Source: Halorussus ruber (lineage in GTDB: Archaea; Halobacteriota; Halobacteria; Halobacteriales; Haladaptataceae). From it: a stretch of DNA of 64,000 bases. Of the stretch, positions 18,130 through 20,400 are shown piece by piece. Position numbers and translations under genes: made by a program. The first letter of the stretch is position 1; every line of letters begins with the position of its first letter. The notes under the pieces were generated by a model, which was given only the letters and a program-made list of their open reading frames with translations, had not been told where the DNA came from and searched no databases. The stretch is from positions 62,001 through 126,000 of the forward strand of contig NZ_SBIT01000010.1 in the NCBI RefSeq assembly GCF_004765785.1. The letters run 5' to 3'.

Positions 18130-18268
18130 TCCACGAGAGACACGACGGCTACGGACATGAAAGTCGGGGTTGAGAACGAACAATAAGGCCGATTCGGGAA
18201 GTTGAGCCTCCTCGCTACGCAGTCGAAAAGTGTCGAGAGTGACCGGCAAGAAGAACAGAAGGAAGTCC

Positions 18269-18437
18269 TCTGAAGCCCCCGCCCGGTCGCTCTGCGGGAT
18301 ATTTCGCGCCTCTCCGCACAGCCCGGCGCGAAATAGTGGCCCGCAGAGACGACCACGTCCTTCGGACGCGACCGAGCGGCCCCTTCATCCACCCCACGGT
18401 GGACTGGTTGGCGAGCAGTTTCCGATGGATTGGTCGG
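18269..18437 (-). ncRNA. Structured intergenic element, family A, copy 1
   Basis: Sequence similar to 20172-20400 in the same orientation. Nested helices: CGGTCG/CGACCG (18284-18289 with 18369-18374), CTCTGCGGG/CCCGCAGAG (18290-18298 with 18340-18348), ATTTCGCGCC/GGCGCGAAAT (18301-18310 with 18325-18334), and a small GTCC/GGAC hairpin near 18357-18367. The middle helix has different bases in the other copy yet still pairs, which supports a folded RNA. The strand is uncertain; minus is favoured because AT-rich promoter-like sequence lies to its right (18510-18545). Confidence 0.6.
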
Positions 18438-18562
18438 CCTGCCACCGACTGTCCGAACGTCGATTACCGTGGCCGTTGTTCATTGCTCTAAGCCCATTCT
18501 ATATGCTCTTGAACACTCTATGTATATATTTAGAAATTGTTTTTATTTCTCCACATACTATT

Positions 18563-18700
18563 CGGCGCGCGCTGGCGCGGCTTTATGCCGCGCCATCGGC
18601 GTGCGAGGGACGAGGACCGCAGGGTGTGAGCGAAGCGAACCCCGAGGACCGCAGGAGGTTGGGGAGGTGTGAGGCCCGCGGTCGCGGTGCTGTGCGGTGA
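18563..18700 (+). repeat. Structured intergenic element, family B, copy 1
   Basis: Begins GGCGCGCGCTGGCG, forms a hairpin with the GCGCGGC arm pairing GCCGCGC around TTTAT, and continues CATCGGCGTGCGAGG, two GAGGACCGCAG repeats and GGAGGTTGGGGAGG. Related copies are at 39239 (+) and 40232-40445 (-). The 18701-18896 remainder up to the dehydrogenase stop contains short GGTGCGGTCCG repeats and no supported gene. Confidence 0.55.
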
Positions 18701-18896
18701 CGCCGAGGCTTCGGCAATCGTAGCGTTGCTGTCGGCGGTGCGGTCCGTTGCCGTCGGCGGTGCGGTCCGTCGCTGTCGCGGAACGGTGCTGTCGCAGAAC
18801 ATCACCGCCGCAGTACGGTACTCTCGCTATCACGATTCTAACACCGTCGAGTTCAAGCAGTCGTTATCTCGAATCCCACCAAAACATGCCCACGAA

Positions 18897-20021
18897 TCAG
18901 TACTCGAAAATCACGCCCAGCGCCTCGGCGGGATTCTCGTCCAACAACTCGTAGGCCTCACTCGCCTCCGAAATCCCGAACTCGTGGGTGACGAACCGCT
19001 CGGGGTCGATGTCGAGCAGTTTCTCCCACGCCAGCGCGAGCCGCCGGTCCTTCGACCACCGGCCCCGCAGTTCCGGGTCGATGGTGCTGACCTGACTGCT
19101 CTCCAGACTCACGCGACTCCGGTGGAACCGCCCGCCGAGGTCCAACTCGGTCGGTTTGGTGCCGTACCACGACCCGACGACGACCCGGCCGTCGTAGCCC
19201 GTCGCCGAGATGGCCGCGTCCAGCGCGTCGGGACACCCCGAGAGTTCGTAGGTCAGGTCCGCGCCCGCGATTTCGTCGTCGCCGGTCGTCGCGTCCGAAT
19301 CGTCGCCGATTTCGTCGGTATCGCTCCCACCGGTCGCCATACCGTCGCCGCCGCTCACCGACTCCTCGCCCCAGCCCGCGCCGTCGCCGAGCTGCTCGCG
19401 GATTCGCTCGCCCACCGCCTCGCGTTCGGAGTCGAGGACGACGTCCGCGCCCAGTTCCAACGAGCGCTCCCGGCGGGACTCGTAGCGGTCCACCGTGACC
19501 AGTCGCTCGACGGGGGCCTCCGAGAGGAGCGCGGTGGTGAGCAGGCCCACCACGCCCTGTCCGAAGACGGCCACGCGCTCGCCGAGGCGGGGCGCGCCGT
19601 CCTGCAGGAAGTTGACCGCCGTCTCGACGTTCGGCAGGAAAGTCGCGGCCTCCGCCGAACACTCCTCGGGCACGACCAGCAGGTCCGAGACCGGCGCGCA
19701 GAAGTGGCTCTCGTGGGGGTTGAACCCGAACACCTCCCGGCCCTCCCACGACGAATCGACGCCCGGCCCGACCGCCTCGACCCGACCGACCGCTGCGTAG
19801 CCGTACCGGAGCGGAAACTCGAAGGTGCCCGCCAGCGCGTCGATGGTCGCGTCGGCGGCCATCTCGGTCGGGACCTCGCCCCGGTAGACCAGTAGCTCCG
19901 TGCCGGGGCTAATCGCCGACCGCTCGGTCCGAACCCGGACTTCCTCCTCGCCGGGTGTCGGTAGCTCTCGTTCGCGCACTTCGACTGCTCCGTCGCCCGT
20001 GAAGTAGAGTGACCGTGGCAT
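18897..20021 (-). CDS. Zinc-type medium-chain dehydrogenase, BchC-like
   Basis: A 374-residue protein of the medium-chain dehydrogenase family. The catalytic-domain part has SAISPGTELLVYRGEVP and GYAAVGRVEAVGPGVD, close to the BchC-like branch, and the Rossmann part has VAVFGQGVVGLLTTALL and TVDRYESRRERSLELGADVVLD. An acidic Gly/Ser/Asp-rich insertion of ~45 residues (about 225-270) interrupts the cofactor domain. Start MPRSLYFTG. It lies between the two family A elements and near the PTPS operon; substrate unknown. Confidence 0.8.
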   Translation of the reverse strand: MPRSLYFTGDGAVEVRERELPTPGEEEVRVRTERSAISPGTELLVYRGEVPTEMAADATIDALAGTFEFPLRYGYAAVGRVEAVGPGVDSSWEGREVFGFNPHESHFCAPVSDLLVVPEECSAEAATFLPNVETAVNFLQDGAPRLGERVAVFGQGVVGLLTTALLSEAPVERLVTVDRYESRRERSLELGADVVLDSEREAVGERIREQLGDGAGWGEESVSGGDGMATGGSDTDEIGDDSDATTGDDEIAGADLTYELSGCPDALDAAISATGYDGRVVVGSWYGTKPTELDLGGRFHRSRVSLESSQVSTIDPELRGRWSKDRRLALAWEKLLDIDPERFVTHEFGISEASEAYELLDENPAEALGVIFEY

Positions 20022-20171
20022 GCTCCCCATTCCGACGGCGAACCGTCGCAACTCGATACGGTTGGATGACTTATCGTTCTTTGGCCGGATGTAGAATTGA
20101 GAGGTGTCGAGAACGCCCGCGGAGGAGATTGAATTCGGAGAACAACAGCCGAGAAGACGAGAAAGCAGTCT

Positions 20172-20400
20172 TCTGAAGCCCCACCCGGTCGCGGTCGCTG
20201 AGCAGGATATTCGGGGCCTCTCCGCATCGCCCGCCCCCGAATAGTTGCCTGCTCAGACGACCACGGGCCTGTCGGCCCGCCGGGAGACAAACCGCGTCTC
20301 CCGAGGTCACGCTCGGTTCCCTCGCGTGACCGCGACCGGGCGGCCCCTTCATCCACCCCACGGCGGTTGTTTTGCCGAGCGTCTGCCGGTGGCTGGTCGC
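20172..20400 (-). ncRNA. Structured intergenic element, family A, copy 2
   Basis: Helices: CCCGGTCGCGGT/ACCGCGACCGGG (12 bp, 20084-numbered arm at 20184-20195 with 20329-20340), CTGAGCAGG/CCTGCTCAG (20198-20206 with 20248-20256), ATTCGGGG/CCCCGAAT (20209-20216 with 20235-20242), GGGCC/GGCCC (20265-20278), CGGGAGAC/GTCTCCCG (20281-20303). Conserved unpaired stretches shared with copy 1 include TCTGAAGCCCC, GGATATT, GCCTCTCCGCA, GACGACCACG and GGCCCCTTCATCCACCCCACGG split by variable helices. On the minus strand a TATA-like AAATAAGTAT lies at ~20403-20412. Confidence 0.62.

Follow-up and report, generated by a model that had tools for sequence, protein, structure and literature searches.

Two intergenic segments of the Halorussus ruber genome, both located within the 64,000-nucleotide stretch of DNA analyzed in this study (hereafter the window), share conserved blocks separated by stems of variable sequence. 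The first-pass annotation interpreted these segments as copies of a folded RNA, and the question raised by the locus is whether the paired changes in their stems reflect an RNA or a repeat of the DNA itself. Both copies were found at the positions given by that annotation, with the stems and blocks it described, in one orientation and with a dehydrogenase gene between them. This gene (18897-20030, minus strand) encodes a zinc-type dehydrogenase (Pfam ADH_zinc_N), whose nearest named relative is a Halorussus aquaticus protein (73% identity). The similarity of the two copies is not due to chance; a blastn search of the same genome with copy 1 as the query returned 45 matches, of which the second best had E = 9e-37. 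The suggestion that the sequence belongs to no known Rfam family was borne out, with zero matches at gathering scores and, up to E = 10, just two matches, both implausible. The shared repeat is named here element A, and the features distinguished at this locus, including an additional module (X) and a member of a second repeat family (B), are as follows.

18240..18271, plus strand: leader of copy 1, recognized from the conservation of individual positions upstream of some 130 copies; weakly conserved type of about 30-50 bp, with a CTTCTT-like motif last, then the left end
18272..18395, plus strand: core of copy 1 (covariance model score 94 bits), comprising GAAG...CTTC, CCC direct repeats, fused outer and second stems, a third hairpin, a small fourth hairpin and the right end
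18276..18278, plus strand: left CCC of the CCC/CCC direct repeat around the inner palindrome of copy 1, by comparison with palindrome-free loci
18279..18290, plus strand: left arm of P1b, the outer palindrome of copy 1 (partner 18368-18379)
18290..18348, plus strand: P2 hairpin of copy 1, arms CTCTGCGGG (18290-18298) and CCCGCAGAG (18340-18348)
18301..18334, plus strand: P3 hairpin of copy 1, arms ATTTCGCGCC (18301-18310) and GGCGCGAAAT (18325-18334), loop 18311-18324
18355..18368, plus strand: small optional hairpin P4 of copy 1, CGTCCTTCGGACG
18380..18395, plus strand: right end of copy 1, CCCCTTCATCCACCCC
18389..18435, plus strand: tail of copy 1, a CCACC..GGTGG hairpin and a tail unit of the 26-bp type
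18523..18549, no strand assigned: AT-rich repeat (TTTAGAAATTGTTTTTATTTC type) between element A and family B
18564..18681, minus strand: member of family B, the second palindromic family, adjoining copy 1 in reverse orientation
20140..20174, plus strand: leader of copy 2, by upstream conservation
20175..20359, plus strand: core of copy 2
20198..20256, plus strand: P2 hairpin of copy 2, arms CTGAGCAGG (20198-20206) and CCTGCTCAG (20248-20256)
20209..20242, plus strand: P3 hairpin of copy 2, arms ATTCGGGG (20209-20216) and CCCCGAAT (20235-20242)
20263..20279, plus strand: P4 hairpin of copy 2, ACGGGCCTGTCGGCCCG
20280..20331, plus strand: extra 52-bp double-hairpin module X of copy 2 (hairpins 20282-20302 and 20305-20331)
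20332..20343, plus strand: right arm of P1b of copy 2
20344..20359, plus strand: right end of copy 2, CCCCTTCATCCACCCC
20372..20399, plus strand: tail unit of copy 2

From the outside in, element A begins with the weakly conserved leader, followed by GAAG or GAAAG, CCC and the 12-bp stem P1b. P1b encloses P2, a second stem of the GGTCGCTCAGCGG type, an internal loop in which ATA is conserved, and the third stem P3, which carries one of several loops. Next come the small hairpin P4, which is optional, the P1b right arm, CCC, CTTC or CTTTC, and ATCCACCC, while the tail is composed of short hairpins, sometimes in tandem. The outer and inner stems of copy 1 are fused because 6 bp were lost between its two GGTCGC repeats, and the P1b arm overlaps that of P2 because one of these repeats is deleted. 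Element A is short and non-coding and carries inverted repeats. Three end types were distinguished (72, 38 and 19 copies), with 19 further copies not placed. Tandem 26-bp tail hairpins (GCCGAGCGTTCGCTGGCGGTTGGTC type) were observed downstream of the core at loci L014, L016 and L028, and at L034 and L029 left units of about 57-75 bp are repeated in tandem upstream of it. Short AT-rich repeats of the TTTAGAAATTGTTTTTATTTC type recur next to many copies.

A search with a covariance model built from 25 hand-picked copies revealed a multi-copy family with at least 149 matches in the genome of origin and matches in 25 of the 40 relatives searched. Within Halorussus the number of copies ranges from 0 (genome G009) and 1 (G014) up to at least 87. 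The right-end 12-mer GCCCCTTCATCC has 106 exact copies in the genome, compared with 2 for its reversed control, and the 13-mer of module X, GACAAACCGCGTC, has 95, compared with 0 in the control. The taxonomic range is layered, the outer parts being widespread and the inner parts narrow: the right end is carried by 44 of the 293 genomes from the order, which belong to 14 of 87 genera, the P2/P3 model finds matches in 6 of 19 genera, and the module X 13-mer is present in 3 of 19, with nearly all of its copies in the genus of the window. Literature searches found no account of element A in Halorussus.

With genes called by a simple codon score, neighbours could be assigned for 138 copies; all of these are located between genes, and none lies inside a predicted gene. 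For 82 of the 138, the gene faced by the left end has the opposite direction (p = 0.03), there is no bias at the right end, and the neighbours occur in both orientations with no fixed gene partner. The spacer that separates the PTPS-like and dehydrogenase genes at the window locus measures only 39-82 bp in congeners G005, G010 and G004; it contains family B alone in G008, a minimal element A with family B in G002, and a full element A with family B in the window. The second spacer is likewise short in relatives. From comparison of these spacers we infer that the series reflects insertion, with loss possible at single sites. In another set of orthologous spacers (L264-L286, genus of G217), many species carry element A with family B, and others have overlapping genes and no spacer. 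An orthologous site in another genus that is empty of the element shows an apparent 4-bp overlap, which was considered as a candidate target duplication and proved to be the stop/start overlap of two genes.

Comparison of loci revealed that element A is a nested insertion, in which the base GAAG-CCC-CTTC contains a CCC-flanked palindrome, and this palindrome contains a second hairpin. Intermediate forms are seen at loci that the covariance model does not match. P1b is absent from L132, L135 and L136. The minimal form, P1b alone, is represented by L131, forms in which P1b encloses another hairpin by L126-L129 and L143, and large nested forms by L134 and L139-L142. In distant genera the right end encloses unrelated palindromes, and within one orthologous spacer of another genus the arms are wholly different between species and still complementary. 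The two CCC that flank P1b may represent a 3-bp duplication.

Module X has the structure ACC-GGNNGAC-AAACCGC-GTCNNCC-GAG-hairpin-GAC. It was found in P3 loops, beside P4, at the right end, between P1b and P2 (reversed), inside other modules and in family B, and no target duplication was detected at the sites compared. On contigs C1 and C2, 24 occurrences were listed independently of element A and assigned to hosts by reading their flanks: 18 reside in element A, 5 in family B and 1 elsewhere. Family B (CCTCCCCAACC...CTCATCCCTCGCGCG..CGCGCGCC) is a second dispersed palindromic family that often adjoins element A and is also present in distant genera.

The stems do covary, as had been claimed: 11 of 20 predicted pairs show two-sided changes, and covariation is also seen across about 148 copies. 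Pairs were counted with a symmetric aligner, in which G·U and A·C are scored alike, over 148 distinct copies and about 4,900 pairs. Half-changed pairs numbered 64 G·U and 14 A·C in P1b, 45 and 20 in P2, and 11 and 18 in P3. Nearly all of the G·U excess falls at two positions fixed by subfamily (38 and 33 copies), and without these positions the count is 49 G·U versus 51 A·C. Eleven tRNAs from the same genome, used as a control, gave 16 and 0, respectively; the difference between element A and the tRNAs has a Fisher p of about 5e-5, a guide value only, because related copies are not independent. One type of P3 loop occurs in both orientations (GCAGAACTGC in 11 copies and its inverse, GCAGTTCTGC, in 11), and at L141 (2844-2910) the entire P2/P3 interior is inverted relative to the outer arms. 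Other apparent inverted interiors were mostly the reverse strand of normal copies, and only that of L141 is real. Two long P3 loop types (48 and 21 copies) are never inverted, so template switching would not be free to act there.

If element A were a structured non-coding RNA family, its transcript would fold and the stems would be selected as RNA. The strong covariation, the branched structure of most copies and the conservation of the two G·U positions on the same strand within subfamilies are in keeping with such a family. However, G·U does not exceed A·C elsewhere, unlike in the tRNA control, interiors are inverted, missing or replaced, and copies turn over between species, their number among congeners running from zero to at least 87; the mixed orientation of neighbours, the lack of a fixed gene partner and the empty Rfam search also disagree with it. 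We therefore consider an RNA family very unlikely, although some copies may be transcribed or act as RNA. The earlier description of the segments as non-coding, strongly base-paired and multi-copy, with covarying stems, stands, but its use of covariation as an argument for RNA does not, and the folded-RNA reading is left unsupported. Covariation alone cannot separate an RNA from a DNA palindrome, and matched stem changes do not by themselves imply a functional RNA, because the copies look like hairpin-in-hairpin DNA. The absence of G·U bias, the inversions, the replaced inner helices and the turnover fit DNA palindromes matched by a DNA-level process.

Two kinds of transposase-dependent element were also considered. 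A REPIN/REP-like element would be moved by a Y1 transposase (RAYT or IS200/IS605 TnpA) acting on single-stranded hairpins, as might be expected of a short, non-coding, hairpin-based intergenic repeat with a high copy number in a genome that contains IS605-type elements (23 TnpB-type matches). Nevertheless, the Pfam model of the Y1 transposase (PF01797) found no match in six copy-rich congeners (G001, G002, G003, G010, G011 and G016, with 31 to at least 87 copies each), which weakens Y1 as the candidate mover. Descent from IS605 right ends was rejected, since the TnpB-type genes examined (23 loci, about five of them unreadable) share no end motif with element A. A REPIN/REP-like origin is thus improbable. 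It is also unlikely that element A is an ordinary MITE of a DDE transposon with ends GAAAGCCC... and incidental inner palindromes. The inverted terminal GAAAG/CTTTC and the possible 3-bp CCC direct repeats would suit a MITE, but these repeats are located inside the element instead of marking its outer limits, insertions of module X showed no target duplication at the compared sites, and no autonomous copy with such ends was found among the roughly 150 loci inspected. No transposase or autonomous relative was found.

Element A is very probably a non-coding dispersed DNA repeat, built of palindromes inside palindromes, which spreads by movement and whose arms are matched at the level of DNA. In this model the outermost unit consists of the leader, GAAG/GAAAG, CCC ... 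CCC, CTTC/CTTTC, the right end and the tail hairpins; the P1b palindrome lies between the two CCC, the P2/P3 palindrome inside P1b, and the mobile module X is inserted in loops or junctions of element A or family B. New loci would arise through movement by some enzyme or replication process, with hairpin loops as the presumed preferred insertion target. The arms may stay complementary through DNA template switching between them, or because movement selects for DNA that forms hairpins or cruciforms. Polymerase template switching homogenizes the arms of inverted repeats and inverts their spacers (PMC8604942), and it can yield compensatory changes in RNA genes (PMC8794818); we infer that it acts on element A. 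More tentatively, and with considerable doubt, we suggest that gene-less small palindromes of haloarchaea insert preferentially at the tips and junctions of DNA hairpins already in place, which would create nested hairpins, via an undescribed enzyme or replication route.

Judging by their described features, the closest known counterparts of element A appear to be the small mobile repeats (SMR) and the palindrome-associated transposable elements (PATEs) of Haloquadratum. SMR-A of Haloquadratum walsbyi resembles element A in its length of about 110 bp, prominent inverted repeats, lack of coding capacity and tens of copies (PMC3119063). It produces no target duplication, and it inserts within near-terminal palindromes of other elements (PMC3119063); module X lies within the palindromic element A or family B in 23 of 24 cases. 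Its mobilization was called enigmatic by the authors (PMC3119063). In contrast, the targets of SMR-A are PATEs and IS605 transposons and its copies are nearly identical (PMC3119063), whereas the stems of element A vary widely and stay complementary, the nesting is several levels deep and at least 149 copies are present. Haloarchaeal PATEs are also short and non-coding, with palindromes near their ends that smaller repeats target, but these palindromes resemble IS605-type ends (PMC3119063), and the end motifs of element A are absent at the TnpB-type genes examined. The double-hairpin or repetitive hairpin-forming elements of mitochondria similarly consist of two GC-rich hairpins that are linked and scattered through spacers, their stems differ by complementary substitutions, and they lack target duplications in Allomyces (PMC2800124 and Allomyces work cited therein). 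They are organellar, while element A is archaeal and insertion is focused on other palindromes. REPINs and REP sequences share with element A an intergenic location, hairpin formation, high copy number and non-autonomy (PMC3116915), and differ in that no Y1 transposase was found in several genomes rich in element A.

Element A provides a haloarchaeal case in which strong stem covariation across dispersed copies can arise from DNA palindromes, and a symmetric count of G·U and A·C can separate this reading from an RNA. The unexplained small mobile repeats of the Haloquadratum type are extended here to a genome group that holds intermediate forms and at least 149 copies, in which the mover could be sought through a comparison of copy-rich with copy-poor species within one genus. 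One copy (L042) lies within a few hundred bp of the end of contig C7 of genome G000, and such repeats may therefore break assemblies.
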